This document shows positions 6,161 through 59,535 of a DNA stretch of 64,000 bases, piece by piece. The position numbers and the translations under genes were made by a program. Numbering within the stretch: the first letter of the stretch is position 1; each line of letters opens with the position of its first letter. The stretch is taken from the NCBI GenBank assembly GCA_001796335.1, contig MGMF01000021.1, forward strand, positions 310,001 through 374,000. The letters are read 5' to 3'. Origin of the DNA: Chloroflexi bacterium GWB2_49_20. Its GTDB lineage: Bacteria > Chloroflexota > Anaerolineae > Anaerolineales > Villigracilaceae. The notes below the pieces were generated by a model. That model did not search any database. It saw nothing but the letters and a program-made list of their open reading frames with translations, and had not been told where the DNA came from.

Positions 6161-6583
6161 TTATAAAAACAAAGATATTATCATGACAAGTAAAATCAAA
6201 ATAAAAATAATTCCATGAAATATTGATATTGTTTTTGAAAAAATTACTCTTTCCCACGGTGCAACTCTTTCTTTTACGAAAGATGTATTCATAGAATAAT
6301 CAATATCGTTTTCTTTTAACAATCTAACATGATCAAATAAAGCGCGAAATAATTTTTCTTGCCAAAGATAATAACCGTCAAGAATCCAAAAAGAAATCGC
6401 TGGGAAATAAGCTAAATAAAGGAAGTATTTATTAGAATTATTGGCTGCCAATGCAAATAAAGAAGATATTAATAATACAGTCCAACCCTTAATTAGAAAT
6501 GAATTATGAGCTATTCTATTGATGACCCCTTGAATCATTTCAAGATGAAATTGCTTTTTTTCGTCCAACGTTTTCTCCTTCAA
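6161..6583 (-). CDS. Three-helix membrane protein paired with the TIR gene
   Basis: 140 residues: a soluble start (KKQFHLEMIQGVINRIA), two helices (about 33-73), a charged middle, and a C-terminal helix (about 115-140). To my knowledge, similar proteins accompany ThsB-like TIR genes in other genomes. No Macro, SLOG or NADase domain is visible, so it differs from ThsA. I infer a membrane effector or sensor opened by a TIR product. RBS GAAGGAGAA precedes the start. Confidence 0.65.
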   Translation of the reverse strand: MKEKTLDEKKQFHLEMIQGVINRIAHNSFLIKGWTVLLISSLFALAANNSNKYFLYLAYFPAISFWILDGYYLWQEKLFRALFDHVRLLKENDIDYSMNTSFVKERVAPWERVIFSKTISIFHGIIFILILLVMIISLFL

Positions 6584-36098: not shown

Positions 36099-38674
36099 CT
36101 GAAACCAAAATCTCTCTTTCTTTGCCCATCTCGGGCATGACCTGCGCCTCGTGCGTCTCGCATGTGGAGGATGCGCTCAAGGAGCTGCCAGGTGTCTCCA
36201 ATGTGGTTGTCAACCTGGCTACCAACAAAGCCAGTCTGGCTTACGACCCTGTCCGTGTAAAGTTGACTGATATGCAGCGAACTGTTGAAAACGCCGGCTA
36301 CGCAATATCCATCTCTGAGGTAACACTGGATGTAGTTGGTATGACCTGCGCATCCTGTGTAGCGCATGTCGAAGATGCACTCAAAGAATTACCCGGGGTA
36401 ACCAGCGCAGTGGTCAACCTGGGGTTAAATACAGCCCGGGTTGCCTATATTCCTGGTGTGATTTCGGTCAGTGCAATGAAACGCGCCGTTCGAGAGGTTG
36501 GCTATGATGCCCAGGAACGCAGCGAAGGGGCGGATGCTCTCGACCGGGAGCGCCAGGCACGTGAGGAAGAGATCAAACGCCAGGGACGCAACCTGCTCAT
36601 CGCCGGGATCATCGGTATGATCGTCATGGTTGGCACGTTTTACGACATGTTCGGCTCGCTCCAGGCCTTTATTCCCAAATTTCTTTCTTACAAATGGGTG
36701 ATTGGCCTTTTAACCACACCCATTGTGTTGGGACCAGGCAGACAATTCTTCATTAACTCGTGGCGTGGCCTCAAGCATGGCGTCACCGACATGAACCTGC
36801 TCTATGCCACCGGTATCGGCGCGGCTTATGGTATCGCGGTGATCAACACTCTCTTCCCAAACGCAGGTTTCGGCGGTGAGGGAGCAACCTTCTTCGAGAG
36901 CGCAGCCTTGCTAACGACCTTCATCATCCTGGGCCGCTGGCTGGAAGCGTTGACGCGCGGTCGGACCTCAGAGTCGATTCGCAAATTGATGAAGCTCCAA
37001 CCCAAGGTCGCGCGCGTTATGCGGAATGGTCAAGAAGAGGAGATTCCTGCTGATGAAGTGGAAATTGGAGATTTGATCCTCGTCCGGCCCGGTGAAAGTA
37101 TTCCCGTGGACGGTATCGTCACGGAGGGTTACTCGGCAGTGGACGAATCCATGCTGACCGGCGAAAGTTTGCCGGTTGAGAAGAAAACGGGCGATAATAT
37201 CATTGGCGGTACGATCAACAAGACAGGCGCCTTCAAATTCACAGCATCCCGTGTGGGCAAGGATACCGCCCTGGCTCAGATTATCAAGCTGGTTGAAGAT
37301 GCCCAAGCCAGCAAAGCTCCTATTCAAAAACTGGCTGACTGGGTGGCCGGGAATTTTATCCTGGGTGTTCACTTGCTGGCAGTGGTGGTATTCATTTTCT
37401 GGTTTTTCTTTGGGTATCAGATGTTCTTCGACCCAAATTCCAGTTTCATCCTATCGCCATACAAACTGGGTGAGATCGGGGTTTTCGGTTTTTCGTTGCT
37501 TCTCTCGGTGACTGTGTTAGTTGTTTCGTGTCCCTGCGCGGTGGGTTTGGCAACGCCCAGCGCCATGATGGCCGGAACCGGCAAAGCCGCTGAATTCGGT
37601 GTTCTGTTCAAAGGTGCTGAAGCTCTCGAGAACGCCAGCCATTTGCAAACGATTGTATTCGACAAGACCGGTACTCTGACCAAAGGCGAGCCTTCGGTCA
37701 CAGATGTGATCGCTTTAGCGAACCAGGAAGCAGATGTACTGCGGCTGGCAGCCATCGCTGAGAAGAACAGTGAACATCCCCTCGGGGAGGCCATCGTCCG
37801 CGGCGCTCAAGATCGTAACCTAAAAGTGGTTGACCCCACCTCCTTCAACTCTATTCCAGGACACGGTATCGAAGCCCGTGTGGAAAACCGCGATGTTCTA
37901 ATGGGTAACCGCAAACTGATGCGCGAACGCAGTGTCGATTTTGCCAGTCTGATGAGTAAAGCTGAAAAGCTGGAAATGGAAGGCAAAACAGTGATGTTCC
38001 TGGCAATTGATGGTCAACCCGCTGGGTTGATCGCCGTAGCAGATACATTGAAAGAACATACCGCTGAAGCGATCCAGCGTCTGCACAAGATGGGCGTCGA
38101 GACAGTCATGATCACCGGCGACAACCTTCGAACGGCAGAGGCCATCGCCCGCCAGGTCGGGATTGACCGAGTGCTGGCCGAGGTGCTACCCCAGGACAAA
38201 GCCGAGGAAGTCAAGAAATTACAGGCACAAGGCAGGAAGGTCGCCATGGTGGGTGATGGTGTAAATGACGCCCCGGCCTTAGCCCAGGCTGAGGTGGGCA
38301 TGGCGATTGGTTCCGGGACAGACGTGGCCAAAGAAACCGGCGACATCATCTTGATCAAAGATGACATCCGCGATGTTGTGACAGCTCTCGAAGTGGCCCA
38401 CGCCACGATGCGCAAGGTCAAGCAAAACCTGTTCTGGGCATTCGTTTACAATACGCTGGGCATCCCGTTAGCTGCCGGGCTGTTCTACCCCTTTGCTTCT
38501 CTGGTCATCAGCCCCGAACTAGCTGGCTTGATGATGGCAGTAAGCTCCATCTCGGTAACACTCAATACCCTGTTGTTGAAAGGGTTCAAACCCTCGCTTT
38601 GGAGTGGACGCGGGCAAAACCTCTCCACCACGGTGCAACTTAAGACCGCTCAAGCATCCACAGGCAATGATTGA
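36095..38674 (+). CDS. copA: Cu(I)-exporting P1B-type ATPase
   Basis: 859 residues: two N-terminal HMA domains (GMTCASC at about 14 and 83), eight membrane helices with the transport motif CPC (about 479), phosphorylation site DKTGTLTKG (about 523), HP in the N-domain (SEHPLG) and hinge GDGVNDAP (about 720). It exports Cu(I) from the cytoplasm. Operon: small protein, CsoR-like, copA, membrane protein, YHS protein. Confidence 0.95.
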
Positions 38675-52243: not shown

Positions 52244-52588
52244 ATGACCGACCCTCAATTGTATAAACTACATGCCAACATCTGCCACACATTGGCTCAT
52301 CCAAAACGGTTGGAAATAATCGACCAACTGAGCCGAGGGGAAATGTCGGTGACCAAATTAGCAGAAACTTTGGGTATCAGCCAGTCTAACCTGTCACAAC
52401 ATCTGGCGATCATGCGGCAGAAGGGTATCGTAATAACGCGGCGGGAGGGGTTGATTGTTCACTATCGGTTAAGTAATCCCAAGATTACCCAAGCTTGTGA
52501 CCTGATGCGGCAAGTACTATTGGAACACTTAGAAGCTAATGCCGAATTGACCAGGGGAGAATTGATGAAAAAGGAACCTGTTTTATGA
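52244..52588 (+). CDS. ArsR/SmtB-family repressor
   Basis: 114 residues: ICHTLAHPKRLEIIDQL, helix-turn-helix MSVTKLAETLGISQSNLSQHL, and a wing ITRREGLIVHYRL, all typical. Cys14 and Cys84 could be sensor residues for metal or reactive sulfur. Leads an operon with a DsrE protein, a tRNA-editing-like protein, a ferredoxin and SQR. Confidence 0.92.
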   Translation: MTDPQLYKLHANICHTLAHPKRLEIIDQLSRGEMSVTKLAETLGISQSNLSQHLAIMRQKGIVITRREGLIVHYRLSNPKITQACDLMRQVLLEHLEANAELTRGELMKKEPVL

Positions 52589-52950
52589 CCGCGCTCGAGA
52601 AAGCAAGTTATTTATTCATCGTCAACGATTCGCCCTATGGCAACGAACGTTCTTACAATGCCCTACGTCTGGCGATAAACCTTGTAAAACGTCCAGAAGC
52701 TCATGTGCAGGTGTTTTTAATGGGTGATGGTGTCAATTGCGCCATCAGCGGGCAGAAGACACCCGAAGGATATTACAATGTCGAGCGGATGCTGAAGTCG
52801 CTTGCCCAACGAGGCGAGGTTGCTACTTGAAGGACTTGCACAGAGGCTCGCGGGGTCGAGCCCGAACGATTTATCGAAGGTGTTCAATCGGGCAACATGG
52901 ATCTGGCTGGCAATTGGTCGGTGGCAGCCGAAAAAGTGTTCGTGTTCTGA
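52585..52950 (+). CDS. DsrE-family sulfur carrier with in-frame TGA (candidate selenoprotein)
   Basis: 121 codons if TGA 52828-52830 is read through. Before the TGA: FLMGDGVNCAISGQKTPEGY and NVERMLKSLAQRGEVAT. After it, same frame: RTCTEARGVEPERFIEGVQ, NMDLAGNWSVAAEKVFVF, natural TGA at 52950. Family members have CGTC or similar where this has stop-R-T-C, so the TGA sits on the first redox Cys (UxxC). A hairpin with a G-bearing loop follows at the right distance. The alternative is a nonsense mutation or sequencing error. ATGA overlap with arsR. Confidence 0.75.
52845..52862 (+). promoter_or_regulatory. SECIS-like hairpin after the DsrE TGA
   Basis: GGCTCG-CGGGGT-CGAGCC: perfect 6-bp GC-rich stem, 6-base loop with G at position 2, loop starting 20 bases after the TGA. 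These values fit the usual description of bacterial SECIS elements. No structure test was possible here. Confidence 0.5.
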
Positions 52951-52960
52951 CAAATATGCA

Positions 52961-53371
52961 ATGAGAATCTTGATGTTCCTCGCCAAACAGTATACCTTCC
53001 ACCCGTTTGAAAAAACGCTGCCAAGTGCAAAAGACAGCACAGGCCAAGAAGAGGTAACCGATGCAGCTGTGGTATTCGTCCATAGTGAACCCCAGGACGA
53101 GCTGGATTCTTCCGGCTTGGAAACCAGGTTCGTAAAGAACGTCAAGTGGATTGCCGGTAAGCGCGGCTTTCGGAATGTCGTGTTGCATTCATTTACACAC
53201 CTGGCTGAGACCAGCGCATCTCCACAATTCGCTGAAGCATTTTTACAGGGTGCAGCTCAACGATTGCGCAGTACCGGTTATCAGGTGACACTCACACCAT
53301 TCGGCTGGATGTGTGAATGGAATCTATCCGTATATGGTGAAAGTCTTGCCAAAGTGTACAAATCCTTATAG
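52961..53371 (+). CDS. Stand-alone threonyl-tRNA synthetase editing-domain-like protein
   Basis: 136 residues from ATG 52961; the longer frame from 52802 lies in the DsrE gene. RILMFLAKQYTFHP at the start, VLHSFTHLAETSASPQFAEA and PFGWMCEWNLSVYGESLAKV match the archaeal ThrRS N-terminal editing fold (DTD-like), which removes serine from tRNA-Thr. A free copy in a bacterial sulfur operon is odd, and its substrate here may differ. Confidence 0.65.
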   Translation: MRILMFLAKQYTFHPFEKTLPSAKDSTGQEEVTDAAVVFVHSEPQDELDSSGLETRFVKNVKWIAGKRGFRNVVLHSFTHLAETSASPQFAEAFLQGAAQRLRSTGYQVTLTPFGWMCEWNLSVYGESLAKVYKSL

Positions 53372-53422: not shown

Positions 53423-53548
53423 GTGTGCGGTTGTATATTAATGCAGGCGACGGTGAATCATGACGAGCACCATCACCCGGCTCAATCCGCGCCTGCGCCT
53501 ATGGCAGGCGGGTGGACCGTCGCAGCGAACAAGATGCTGGTGCTTTAG
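53423..53548 (+). CDS. 41-residue MCGC-start His-rich peptide
   Basis: GTG start at 53423 with AAAGGAG upstream. It reads MCGCILMQATVNHDEHHHP, then a Pro/Ala linker and GGWTVAANKMLVL. The opening is the same as in the 55144 gene (MCGCMLMHAAMDHE). Cys and His suggest metal binding. An ATG two bases earlier is out of frame and stops at once. Confidence 0.6.
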   Translation: MCGCILMQATVNHDEHHHPAQSAPAPMAGGWTVAANKMLVL

Positions 53549-53562
53549 ATTGAGAGGATTTT

Positions 53563-53793
53563 ATGGTCCGGGAGATTAAAATTAAGATCCAGACTGAAAC
53601 CTGTCAAATCTGCCACCGTTGTCTAGCAGCTGAATCCTGCAAAGTGCGCGCCATCATGCGGATTGATTTTGACGATCTTCCATACATTGATGTCGAACGC
53701 TGTTACGACTGCCGTTTTTGCATCCCCGCCTGTCCCTTCGGCGCGGTTCGAACAGTGGGCGATATTCGATTATCGGTAAATGCCGTAAGTTAA
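53563..53793 (+). CDS. 4Fe-4S ferredoxin-like protein
   Basis: 76 residues with CQICHRCLAAESC (imperfect first site) and CYDCRFCIPACPFGAV (complete second site). Likely carries electrons for the next gene's flavoprotein. GAGAGGATTTT precedes the ATG. Confidence 0.85.
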   Translation: MVREIKIKIQTETCQICHRCLAAESCKVRAIMRIDFDDLPYIDVERCYDCRFCIPACPFGAVRTVGDIRLSVNAVS

Positions 53794-53809: not shown

Positions 53810-55051
53810 ATGTCTGGTAAAACTGTGCTTATACTGGGTGGAGGCATCGGCGGACTCGTCTCCGCCAACGAATTGCGGCGGCTCCTGCCCTCCGAACACC
53901 GTATCGTGTTGGTCGAGAAAAATCTCAGACACGCTTTTGCACCCTCCTTCCTGTGGCTGATGACTGGTGACCGCCGACCAGAACAGATCACGCGGGACGT
54001 GCGCCAACTCGTTCACCCCGGCGTTGAGGTGATCCTGACTGAAGCGCAGGCGATTGACCTGTCCAATCGCCGTGTGCAGACCAGTGCGCAGGCGCTGAAT
54101 TACGATTATCTTATCGTCGCCCTCGGAGCGGAACTAGCCCCCGGTGCCATCCCCGGTTTGGCGGAGAGCGCACAGACCTATTTCACATTCGATGGAGCAA
54201 TGAAATTACGAGATACATTGCAAAACTTCGCTGGTGGAAAGGTGGCTGTGGTCGTAAGCTCCTTGCCCTATAAATGCCCCGGCGCGCCGCACGAAGGCGC
54301 TATGCTCATTGCCAATACGCTCTGCAAGCGCGGCTTGAACAACAACACCGAAGTACATTTATTCACGCCGGAGCCTCAGCCCATGCCGGTGGCGGGACCA
54401 AATTTGGGTGACGCGGTGAAACAGATGCTCGAAGATCGAGGTGTTGCCTTTCATCCTCTGCACAAACTGAGCCATGTAAATCCTGATGTCGGCGAACTTA
54501 CCTTCGACGGAAAAGAATCATTCCGTTACAACTTACTGGTCGCCATCCCGCCTCACCGCGGGCCGCACATCGCTCAAGAAGCTGGGTTGACCAATGAGGC
54601 TGGCTGGATCCCGGTGGATCGCGCTACCCTCCAGACAAAGCACGAAAATGTGTACGCGATCGGCGACGCGGCAGCCATCTCCATCCCCGGGCGCTGGAAG
54701 CCCGACGTGCCTATGATGTTGCCAAAAGCTGGCGTGTTTGCCCATGCCCAAGCAGAGGTAGTTGCGCGCCGCGTCGCCGCTGAGATCGCGGGGACTGGCG
54801 AGCGAGCAAATTTTCCTGGCATTGGCTATTGCATGCTGGAGGCAGGCGAAAGTCTGGCAGGATTCGCGTACGGCAATTTTTACGCTGAACCGTCTCCGCA
54901 GATCGAACTCCGCAAGATGGGCAAATCCTGGCATTTCGGCAAAGTGCTGTTCGAGCAGTGGTGGTTGTCTCCCTACGGCTTGAAACGCGAGGCGCTGCAC
55001 ATGATTCTGTCGCTTGGCGGCAGGACGCTAGGCATACCGATCATCATTTAA
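53810..55051 (+). CDS. Sulfide:quinone oxidoreductase-like flavoprotein
   Basis: 413 residues. FAD motif LILGGGIGGL at the start, a second dinucleotide segment (KVAVVVSSLPYKCPGAP) with Cys near 155, GDAAAI for FAD ribityl, and GYCMLEAGESL with Cys near 340, so two Cys for a sulfur bridge are plausible. A C-terminal amphipathic segment (WWLSPYGLKREALHMI) fits membrane association. Oxidises sulfide to polysulfide in SQR relatives. Confidence 0.88.
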   Translation: MSGKTVLILGGGIGGLVSANELRRLLPSEHRIVLVEKNLRHAFAPSFLWLMTGDRRPEQITRDVRQLVHPGVEVILTEAQAIDLSNRRVQTSAQALNYDYLIVALGAELAPGAIPGLAESAQTYFTFDGAMKLRDTLQNFAGGKVAVVVSSLPYKCPGAPHEGAMLIANTLCKRGLNNNTEVHLFTPEPQPMPVAGPNLGDAVKQMLEDRGVAFHPLHKLSHVNPDVGELTFDGKESFRYNLLVAIPPHRGPHIAQEAGLTNEAGWIPVDRATLQTKHENVYAIGDAAAISIPGRWKPDVPMMLPKAGVFAHAQAEVVARRVAAEIAGTGERANFPGIGYCMLEAGESLAGFAYGNFYAEPSPQIELRKMGKSWHFGKVLFEQWWLSPYGLKREALHMILSLGGRTLGIPIII

Positions 55052-55143: not shown

Positions 55144-55434
55144 ATGTGTGGTTGTATGTTAATGCACGCGGCGATGGATCACGAGGGACACCAGACCTCC
55201 ACCCAGCCTGCCTCTACGCCGCAAGCCAACGTGACGTCTGCCGTCAGCGGGCAACTATGCGTCGATTGCAGTTTCCCTCTGGGACAGGGTTTTGCTTTTT
55301 GCCCCAACTGCGGCATGAACCTCAAAACGTCCGAATGTTCCGCCTGTGGGCAAAAAGTTGATCCTAGTTGGTCTGTGTGCGCCTTTTGCGGATCGCTGCT
55401 TAATGAAACGGAAAAACAACCAGCCCATCATTAG
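55144..55434 (+). CDS. MCGC-start protein with zinc ribbons
   Basis: 96 residues: MCGCMLMHAAMDHEGH opening, a linker, then two ribbons (CVDC...CPNC and CSAC...CAFC) and a His tail. AAAGGAGAACGACT precedes the ATG. Same plan as 47371, and its opening matches the 53423 peptide. Confidence 0.72.
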   Translation: MCGCMLMHAAMDHEGHQTSTQPASTPQANVTSAVSGQLCVDCSFPLGQGFAFCPNCGMNLKTSECSACGQKVDPSWSVCAFCGSLLNETEKQPAHH

Positions 55435-56577: not shown

Positions 56578-59211
56578 TCACTTTACAGAAAATTTCGGCT
56601 TGAAGCTGCGCAGACGGTTGGCATTGCCTACCACTGTCACAGATGAGAAGGCCATCGCTGCGCCAGCGATCAACGGATTGAGCAGTATGCCAAAGAAGGG
56701 GAACAGCACACCCATCGCCACCGGCAAACCAAGCGCATTGTAGATAAAGGCTCCAAACAGATTTTGTTTGATATTGCCCATCGTGGCCCGGCTGACTTCA
56801 ATGGCAGTCACAACACCTTTTAAGCTGCCCTTGATCAGGGTGATGTCAGAAGCTTCGATGGCTACATCCGTGCCGGTTCCGATGGCCAGGCCAACATCCG
56901 CCTGAGCCAAAGCCGGGGCGTCATTAATTCCATCGCCAACCATTGCCACCAGCTTGCCTTCGGCCTGCAATAAGTGAACATTTTTCGCCTTGTCTTCGGG
57001 CAGTACTTCTGCCAACACTCGATCAACGCCCACCTTGCGGGCAATAGCCTGGGCGGTGCGCTGGTTGTCTCCGGTGATCATGACCACTTCGATGCCCATT
57101 TTTTGCAAGGCAGAAATGGCTTCGGCGGAGTCTTCCTTGACCGTATCGGCTACAGCCACAATCCCGGCCGCCTGGCCATCCACTGCCATATACATGGGTG
57201 TTTTGCCGTCATCGGCCAGGGAGGTTGCTTTTTGTTCGAGATCACCCAGGTTGATCTTTTCACGATTCATCATTTTCAGATTACCAAGCACCACCCGCCT
57301 GCCGTCCACGGTAGCGATCACACCGAACCCCGGAACCGCCTCGAAAGCGGATGGTTCGCTCAAGGCGATACCCTTCGCCTTTGCACCTTCGACAATCGCT
57401 TCTGCCAGGGGATGTTCGGAAGAACGCTCCACCGAGGCAGCCAGGTGCAAGAGGTCATTTTCCTGCCAGGCAGCAGCTAAAACTGTATCGGTCAATTCGG
57501 GCTTGCCCTTGGTGATCGTCCCGGTCTTGTCCAATATCACGATTTTGATCCCCTGAGCAGTTTGCAGGGCTTCGCCGGAGCGGATCAGGATGCCATTTTC
57601 CGCACCTTTGCCAATCCCAACCATCAGGCTCATTGGAGTGGCCAGACCCAGGGCGCACGGGCAGGCTATGATCAGGACTGTCACGGCTGTGACCAGGGCG
57701 TATACTAACTGCGGTTGCGGACCGAAGTCGAACCAGAGTATGAAGGTCAGTACGGCCAGAATCATTACAACCGGAACAAAGTAGCCAGACACCTTATCAG
57801 CCATGCGGGCGATGGGAGCTTTGCTGTTCTGGGCATCCTGCACCATCTTTACAATCTGCGCCAGTGCTGTATCCTTGCCAACTTTGGTGGCGCGGAACTT
57901 GAAAGCGCCAGTCTTGTTGAGCGTAGCCCCTATGACCTCGTCACCCGGTCTTTTGGATGCGGGCAGCGACTCTCCGGTCAGCATGGATTCATCCACCGCA
58001 GAGCTTCCTTCCAGGATCAGGCCATCCACCGGCACCTTCTCTCCGGGGCGGACCTGCACCACGTCACCCACCAGGACTTCCTCGACCGGGATGTCCAGTT
58101 CCTGGCCATTCCTGACCACACGGGCGGTCTTGGCTTGCAGACCCATCAGTTTCTTTATGGCCTCGCTGGTACGGCCTTTGGCACGCAGTTCGAGCGCCTG
58201 ACCGAGTACCACCAGGGCGATAACCACCGCCACCACATCATAGAACGGCTCAGATGTGCCTTCTGGAAAGATGGATGGAAATAGAATGGCAATGGTGGAA
58301 TAGAGCCAGGCCGCCGCTGTCCCCAGGGCGATCAGGCTGTTCATATTGGCGGAGCGATGCTTGAGGGCCGCCCATGCACCGGTAAAAAAGTCGCTGCCTG
58401 ACCAGAACAGCACTGGCAGAGTCAGTAGAGCTGTCATTCCCCATGCCAGGCGCAGGGTCTCCATACTCCAATCACGCACGAAAGGTACGAATTTGGAATA
58501 GGCAGTCACCAGAACCGGCAGTGATATGAAAGCTGCAAACCAAAACCGGTTCATCAATCGCCGGTACTCTTTTTCGTGGGCTGCTTGTTGCTTGTCAATT
58601 GGCTCTTCACTGGTCGCAGGATTGGGCTTGTACCCCCAGGACTCGATGGCAGTATTAAGATCAGCCAGGGTTGTCTTCTCAGGGAGGTAATCAACCGTGG
58701 CTTCCTGGGTGGCAACGTTGACAGAAACGCTTAATACGCCTGGCGTGGCCCGCAATTCGCCTTCGATAAATTTCACACACGATGCGCAACGTAAATTCTG
58801 GATGCCAATGCGCGTCTGTGTACCACCAATTTGGTATCCTGCTGAACGGACCAGTTCTGCCAATTTGGTCAGAGTTATCACTTTAGGGTCGTATGTCACC
58901 TGGGCAATTCCGGCAGCGCGATTGACCACCACGCGACTCATCCCGGATTGTGCTTTCAGCGAGGATTCAAGCTGTACTGAGTCGCTATTTTTCTTTAACC
59001 CCTGGATAGGTATATTAAGTTGTGCCAGCGATAATTCCGGGTTGACGCCGGTTGTGGCAGAAGTAGCCATGGCATAACGATGTGGGTCAGTGTCAAATTT
59101 CCCTACACAGTCTTCCGAGCAGAAGTAAAATTTCTGCCCCATATGCTCCCGAGATGCAAAAACAGTATCTGGGTCAATTTCCATTCCGCAGACCGGGTCT
59201 TTTTTAGTCAT
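56578..59211 (-). CDS. Cu(I) P1B-type ATPase with N-terminal YHS domain
   Basis: 877 residues from ATG 59211 (GGAAGG upstream); the frame to 59277 is less likely. Order: YHS domain (about 3-45, DPVCGM and YFCSEDC), an HMA-like domain without CxxC (about 62-125), an HMA with CASC (about 145), eight helices with CPC (about 518), [11 protein letters not shown] (SEHPLA) and GDGINDAP. Second copper pump of the window, co-transcribed with a thioredoxin-like and a cupredoxin gene. Confidence 0.93.
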
Positions 59212-59535
59212 AGGTTCCAACCTTCCTTTTTTGGACATACATAATTTGTGATGTTTACTTCCTTCAGTATACGTCAAAGAAAGATGAGCCGAACAGCGGA
59301 TTTGTGCCTGTTATGTATAAGTGAAATGGCCTATGCTGCATAGAAAACTTAGGTCATTTTGGCAGGATAGATGAGTCAGGTTTGTCAGCATATCGAAGGA
59401 ATATCTGGTTACAGTGTTGATATTCCAAAGAATATACACATCTGAGATCAATGCCGCGATTTGCGATTGGATCAATTCATTTGCCCACTTCTCGCTTGTT
59501 GGGGCATGGGGGAAGGTTTTCTAGGTGGGGGCCCA
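59212..59535. other. Intergenic region before the copper ATPase
   Basis: 324 bases with no convincing gene. It must hold the ATPase promoter, but I could not pick a clear -35/-10 pair or a copy of the recurring operator. Confidence 0.35.

Follow-up and report, generated by a model that had tools for sequence, protein, structure and literature searches.

The genome of Chloroflexi bacterium GWB2_49_20 carries a DsrE/YchN-like gene that almost certainly encodes a selenoprotein, as judged from its sequence and that of its relatives. The gene lies at positions 52585–52950, on the forward strand, of the 64,000-nucleotide stretch of DNA analysed here (the window), and its predicted product has 121 residues, in which an in-frame TGA (52828–52830) would be read as selenocysteine (Sec82) at the first position of a UxxC motif. 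This interpretation had been proposed in a first-pass annotation of the window and is now strongly supported. The ATG at 52585 overlaps the stop codon of an ArsR gene (52244–52588), and the frame is interrupted only once, by the TGA, after which 39 sense codons (52831–52947) lead to a natural TGA stop (52948–52950) located 10 bases before the next ATG at 52961; all of these coordinates were confirmed as annotated. Around Sec82, the predicted product reads RGEVAT-U-RTC-TEARGVEPERF, and the partner cysteine of the U82-R-T-C85 motif, Cys85 (TGC, 52837–52839, forward strand), is invariant in both a 12-row and a 40-row alignment of DsrE homologues. The proposed UxxC pattern therefore holds, but the residue that follows Sec82 is Arg (codon 52831–52833), which occurs in 2 of the 71 rows with Sec, whereas 64 have Gly.

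The read-through frame scores 61.5 bits against the Pfam DsrE family (PF02635, gathering cut-off 22.7), and the part before the TGA alone scores 44.8 bits. Against the TusD/DsrE sulfurtransferase equivalog TIGR03012, the protein stays below the curated cut-off (37.8 versus 89.25 bits), and with NCBIfam release 20.0, neither the full protein nor any of three relatives tried reached the cut-off of a model. Since the conventional reading of the open reading frame ends at 81 residues and no NCBIfam model is above its cut-off, Sec-containing DsrE genes of this kind probably carry annotations as truncated DsrE.

The TGA is shared by the close relatives. Of 61 genomes searched (the host itself, the same family, and the same order), 11 contained a total of 12 matches. 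Every match has one in-frame TGA, aligned at a single column; the 11 besides the window gene share 58–76% identity. In an even sample of the phylum comprising 400 genomes, a match was found in 54, and at E ≤ 1e-20 there were six matches (five genomes) with one TGA and 28 matches (25 genomes) with an uninterrupted frame. Named genomes were also scanned, and here the share of Sec forms is inflated, because the 80 loci retained are the best of 460 matches to a profile built from Sec members only. Across the 120 alignable matches, which include copies of one gene from two collections, the column holds TGA in 81, TGC in 34, TGT in 5, and no other codon, so that every one of the 39 matches without TGA has a cysteine codon there; this count omits loci L019, L031, and L032 (window gene, copy of L030), and the alignment of locus L058 does not reach the column. 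The TGA had been placed at the first redox cysteine of a CxxC motif, and both this codon distribution and the alignment with Cys78 of YchN bear this out; the same TGA recurs in related genomes, in all 12 matches of the narrow search (the window gene included) as well as in the 81 of the wider set, and TGA-bearing relatives reach down to about 55% protein identity.

Removal of identical downstream stretches and addition of the window gene left 71 Sec rows and 37 Cys rows. Among the 71 Sec rows, one comes from locus L068, where a second, broken copy of DsrE (6229–6309), downstream of an intact one, retains the Sec/SECIS part amid further stops. When the Sec/Cys residue was masked, a quick tree of 107 rows placed all 70 Sec rows on one side of a single branch (70 versus 37 rows, support 90), corresponding to one change versus about 31 under shuffled labels, in a tree that is based on few columns, with 43 of 103 inner branches drawn open, and on a sample that favours Sec. 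Six of the Sec rows carry other labels, namely Acidobacteriota (2), Bacillota (2), Thermodesulfobacteriota (1), and Pseudomonadota (1), and the rest come from records labelled Chloroflexota or from genomes of the window's phylum. The Sec-DsrE loci of the same clade with outside-phylum labels (L102, L113, L123, L091, L096, and L098, labelled Desulfobacteraceae, Thermoanaerobaculia, Acidobacteria, Pseudomonadota, and Firmicutes) reflect either transfer or misbinned contigs. A search of plasmids returned 36 records, every one of them below 60% identity.

The DsrE frame past the TGA evolves as a protein. Over codons 13–39 downstream, the per-site differences at codon positions 1, 2, and 3 are 0.26, 0.19, and 0.56, similar in kind to the values of 0.17, 0.11, and 0.50 before the TGA (746 pairs of 81 rows, copies included). 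The next stop follows after exactly 39 codons in 67 of the 69 non-redundant relatives, after 44 codons in one, and after 31 in one, so that the downstream frame of these 67 TGA-bearing relatives is intact rather than decayed. The sole early stop among the 69 is the TAG in L122, situated 31 codons past the Sec codon and 8 before the usual end, which reflects either decay or an assembly error. For the window gene, one could likewise imagine an ordinary Cys-type DsrE gene that was hit by a nonsense mutation or misassembled at this codon; its genome is a 28-contig assembly, and the TAG of L122 is a further point in favour. However, a single TGA in 12 of 12 matches, its presence at this position throughout the 70-row side of the tree, down to about 55% identity, and an intact downstream frame in 67 of 69 relatives make this explanation extremely improbable.

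The terminal stop codons of the 69 relatives are TAA in 29, TGA in 29, and TAG in 11, and TGA therefore still works as the stop of that gene in the 29. This bears on a genome-wide change of the code, under which TGA would specify an ordinary amino acid rather than selenocysteine. The frame is indeed open once TGA counts as a sense codon, as such a change would predict, but the window gene itself ends at TGA, as do the 29 relatives, the other 39 matches carry a cysteine codon at the column, and the genome possesses a complete set of selenocysteine genes, so that a code change has next to no probability. All four genes of that set, selA, selB, selC, and selD, were found in the host genome (3.37 Mb in 28 contigs): selA (549 bits), selB (340 bits), and selD (369 bits) are each above the cut-off, and the tRNA-Sec scores 67 bits against a gathering score of 47 and is called by ARAGORN as tRNA-SeC with anticodon TCA. 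The host SelD gene (locus L015, minus strand) contains one in-frame TGA of its own (SNCAG-U-ASK), as known Sec-containing SelD genes do.

The presence of selA was also considered as a discriminator between Sec and Cys genomes and was rejected. Matches to selA occur in 13 of 13 Sec-DsrE genomes, in one of them as a 27-bit fragment near a contig start only, versus 19 of 24 Cys-DsrE genomes (of the 25 genomes whose match at E ≤ 1e-20 is uninterrupted, all but G182); because selA is present in these 19 as well, the sel machinery and Sec-DsrE are not tightly linked. A crude codon-usage scan of the window for further genes with an in-frame TGA gave one weak candidate at 38672, where the TGA is flanked by weakly coding-like sequence (861 codons upstream and 85 downstream); the scan is too insensitive to show the absence of other such genes, since it missed the DsrE TGA itself.

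Downstream of the TGA, a bacterial SECIS-type hairpin is predicted on the forward strand, with the stem at 52845–52850 / 52857–52862 and the loop at 52851–52856. Six pairs (GGCTCG/CGAGCC) begin at nt 15 after the TGA, and the loop, CGGGGT, occupies nt 21–26; both the place of the hairpin and its G-bearing loop fit the bacterial SECIS features given in PMC1088965. The first-pass annotation had located the hairpin correctly, from nt 15 onward, but its folding energy alone is unremarkable, with a z-score of +0.36 against dinucleotide shuffles (125 of 200 shuffles fold as well) and p = 0.27 against synonymous recodings. The corresponding z-scores are +0.24, −1.79, and −2.65 in the Sec genes of L064, L090, and L113, and −0.57 and +0.40 in the Cys genes of L127 and L139. 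In the recoding test, the 71 Sec rows have a median z of −1.2, with p ≤ 0.05 in 18, and the 37 Cys rows a median z of −0.06, with p ≤ 0.05 in 3. Folding energy was thus rejected as evidence, since neither the single-sequence z-scores nor the synonymous recodings are special, and the weight of the hairpin comes from its fixed place and its covariation across relatives.

The five core pairs (nt 16–20 with nt 27–31) are complete in 65 of 71 Sec rows versus none of the 37 Cys rows, the best of which form three of the five; this distribution upholds the reading of the hairpin as a SECIS element. The core is incomplete in six Sec rows, one of them a broken gene copy, and the sixth, outermost pair (nt 15–32) is formed in 54 Sec rows and missing in 17. 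Within the core, nt 18, the synonymous third base of an Ala codon in nearly all rows, pairs with nt 29, the second base of a Glu/Gly codon, and the 71 Sec rows show T-A in 19, C-G in 46, T-G in 3, and C-A in 3 (Fisher 2e-11, uncorrected for relatedness). On a tree of the Sec rows alone, for which the hairpin codons were masked, nt 18 and nt 29 each changed at least 11 times. Its well-supported branches provide three independent pairs, of which an average of 2.6 saw both sites change in the same direction and 0.0 in opposite directions; this link is below significance, three independent pairs being too few. Among the control sites listed, the counts for the same way and the other way are 0.8 and 0.8 of five pairs for nt 33/29, 0.2 and 1.9 of six pairs for nt 36/29, and 0.7 and 0.2 of five pairs for nt 6/29, and neither any control pair among those listed nor the true partner 18/29 is significant. 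The outermost pair 15/32 shows no clear link over three pairs under two codings (1.7 versus 0.2 and 0.4 versus 0.1). Among the 12 sequences of the narrow search, one pair has changes on both sides; shuffles equalled its covariation score in 1 of 500 cases, the count of pairs changed on both sides in 351, and the count of pair types in 497.

The loop exists in two types, CGGGNT and A-GGTC-T, in which the synonymous bases nt 21 and nt 24 are linked (C/G in 44 and A/T in 23 of the 71 Sec rows). G22 and G23 are present in 71 of 71 Sec rows; they give no independent evidence for a SECIS element, because both begin a Gly codon that is common in Cys rows, where G22 is present in 37 of 37 and G23 in 32 of 37. 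The Sec-DsrE branch provides a well-populated, covarying SECIS set.

A second lineage with Sec was met among the weak matches of the even phylum sample, two of which (G345 and G352), each with one TGA, belong to another, distant DsrE protein with U-K/R-G-C at the same place as UxxC. In 14 loci of this lineage (13 genes, closely related; L140 963–1310 and L141 902–1249, both on the minus strand, and L142–L153), the hairpin starts 12–15 nt after the TGA. A match to this protein occurs in 36 of 42 genomes of another order of the phylum; 35 of these matches, each in a different genome, contain one TGA, and the match in the 36th genome (G310) covers the part after the TGA only. Both genomes of this lineage that were tested contain selA.

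The kind of selenoprotein is itself already known, since publications on DsrE-like UxxC selenoproteins date back to 2005. Two sequences were reported from the Sargasso Sea in 2005 (PMC1088965), one was listed for Desulfovibrio vulgaris in 2006 (PMC1794560), and the GOS set of 2008 contains DsrE 1 with 19 sequences and DsrE 2 with 2 sequences (PMC2398784); DsrE-like selenoproteins are also included in reviews of 2022 and 2026. The accessible part of the 2006 paper also counts three selenoproteins in Chloroflexi, whose names are not given there (PMC1794560). As described in the accessible parts of these sources, the published proteins share with the window protein the DsrE domain, Sec as the first residue of UxxC, and a bacterial SECIS element just downstream; however, the published sets hold few sequences, with no Chloroflexota member named in those parts, whereas the window's branch comprises 70 non-redundant rows. 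Full-text literature searches, viewed as titles and the starts of abstracts, returned no account of a Chloroflexota DsrE selenoprotein. Within this scope, the large, mostly Chloroflexota branch appears to be undescribed.

With the 12-row profile, the solved sequences matching at E ≤ 0.1 were YchN (1jx7, 6e-25), DsrF (0.013), and DsrE (0.018), the latter two from 2hy5. The TGA column falls on Cys78 of YchN (E 6e-25) and, by a weak alignment (E 0.018), on Cys78 of DsrE, the residue numbers having been counted from the end positions of the alignments. In the AlphaFold model of the window protein (pLDDT 94.5), Sec82 terminates a strand and directly precedes a helix; the model matches the structures of YchN, DsrEFH, and TusBCD. 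The closest solved protein in both sequence and fold is YchN of E. coli (1jx7; 37% identity, rmsd 1.5), which has CxxC (Cys78 and Cys81) where the window protein has UxxC, that is, Cys instead of Sec. DsrE of DsrEFH (2hy5) and TusD of TusBCD (2d1p) have the same fold with 17% identity to the window protein; DsrE is without a cysteine three residues on, whereas the window protein has Cys85. A full-text search for literature on YchN together with DsrE found none, and a DsrF/DsrH-like gene was not found among the scanned neighbours of the window gene.

Some thiol or sulfur redox role of the protein at Sec82 is very likely. In DsrEFH, sulfur is bound in vitro at DsrE-Cys78 (PMC3397948), and this binding, together with the fold match, suggests that Sec82 may be the sulfur-carrying or sulfur-reducing residue and Cys85 the resolving one. 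For the narrower assignment, that Sec-DsrE handles sulfane sulfur, the chances appear about even. In the mechanism proposed, SelB and Sec-tRNA(UCA) would read the UGA (52828–52830) with the help of the hairpin 15–32 nt downstream and would insert Sec82 as the first residue of U-x-x-C, where it would replace the sulfane-sulfur-binding cysteine of DsrE (Cys78), with the adjoining Cys85 serving as the resolving thiol. Most likely, Sec82 would then receive sulfane sulfur as Sec-Se-SH, for example from an SQR-like enzyme of the same gene row, and the sulfur would be either passed on or released as sulfide via a Sec-Cys85 selenenyl sulfide. The two-cysteine ArsR regulator upstream would switch the gene row on when reactive sulfur rises.

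The genes on both sides of DsrE, all on the forward strand, provide the context for this mechanism. The upstream gene (52244–52588) encodes an ArsR/SmtB-type regulator (NF033788, 89.9 bits, cut-off 55) with Cys14 and Cys85; all 16 distinct close homologues (at least 55% identity), every one in a Sec-DsrE locus, retain both cysteines. Directly downstream lies a stand-alone, archaeal-type ThrRS editing-domain protein (52961–53371; PF08915, 123.6 bits), for which no match was found at E ≤ 1e-4 in 104 related loci; it is probably an extra gene between DsrE and the ferredoxin, outside the conserved set. A two-cluster ferredoxin of the Fer4 families (53563–53793) is followed by a flavoprotein (53810–55051) related to type III sulfide:quinone reductase (SQR) and by an MCGC zinc-ribbon-like small protein (55144–55434), the last named by eye. 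The best NCBIfam match of the flavoprotein is NF049943, type III SQR of the selenoprotein subtype, of which it is not a member (226 bits, cut-off 525); that subtype is listed as HxxU in a review (PMC13188914), whereas the flavoprotein is without Sec, its frame containing no in-frame TGA and being open to its TAA.

Neighbours were counted in 104 loci (69 Sec and 35 Cys) with flanks of about 1.5–4 kb, many of which end at contig ends. Under these conditions, DsrE has a nearby SQR-like gene in the same orientation in 18 of the 69 Sec loci and 13 of the 35 Cys loci; for an ArsR gene, the counts are 24 and 18, respectively. A ferredoxin gene likewise accompanies DsrE in 9 Sec loci and an MCGC gene in 10 Sec loci; the order ArsR–DsrE–ferredoxin–SQR–MCGC is found in L064, L066, and L090. 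The two-cysteine ArsR regulator, the ferredoxin, and the SQR-like flavoprotein nearby suggest the handling of sulfane sulfur. The fullest form of the proposal, a selenium-based sulfane-sulfur relay of Chloroflexota in which a DsrE carrier, holding sulfur as a Sec perselenosulfide (Se-SH) where the Dsr/Tus carriers use their persulfide cysteine, would be fed by an SQR-type flavoprotein within a sulfide-regulated operon, and in which Cys would have changed to Sec separately in two lineages, is offered tentatively.

A Sec protein for thiol-disulfide or peroxide redox reactions, or for binding a metal or metalloid, rather than for sulfane-sulfur transfer, is a possibility of some weight, though not the probable one. 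The model shows UxxC immediately before a helix, an arrangement common to thiol-redox proteins in general; metals are a frequent signal of ArsR-family regulators, a copper-ATPase-like gene (56578–59277, named by eye) lies nearby, its relatives sharing the strand of DsrE in 4 of 69 Sec loci, and to our knowledge YchN has no assigned function. In fold and sequence, however, the protein agrees with the DsrE/TusD sulfur carriers, its Sec standing where they bind sulfur on a cysteine, and SQR-like genes stand near the Sec and Cys forms alike (18 of 69 and 13 of 35 loci), which argues for the sulfane-sulfur reading. With 70 non-redundant Sec rows and one Sec/Cys change on the tree, the DsrE family lends itself to studying what selenium contributes to the chemistry of sulfur carriers: the fold also occurs in Cys forms, some of them with similar neighbours, which allow a direct comparison.

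In addition, a 41-residue frame at 53423–53548 of the window starts like the MCGC protein (20 of 22 DNA positions identical) and ends in GGWTVAANKMLVL, which by eye resembles the tail of DsrE; this frame is probably the scar of a rearrangement.
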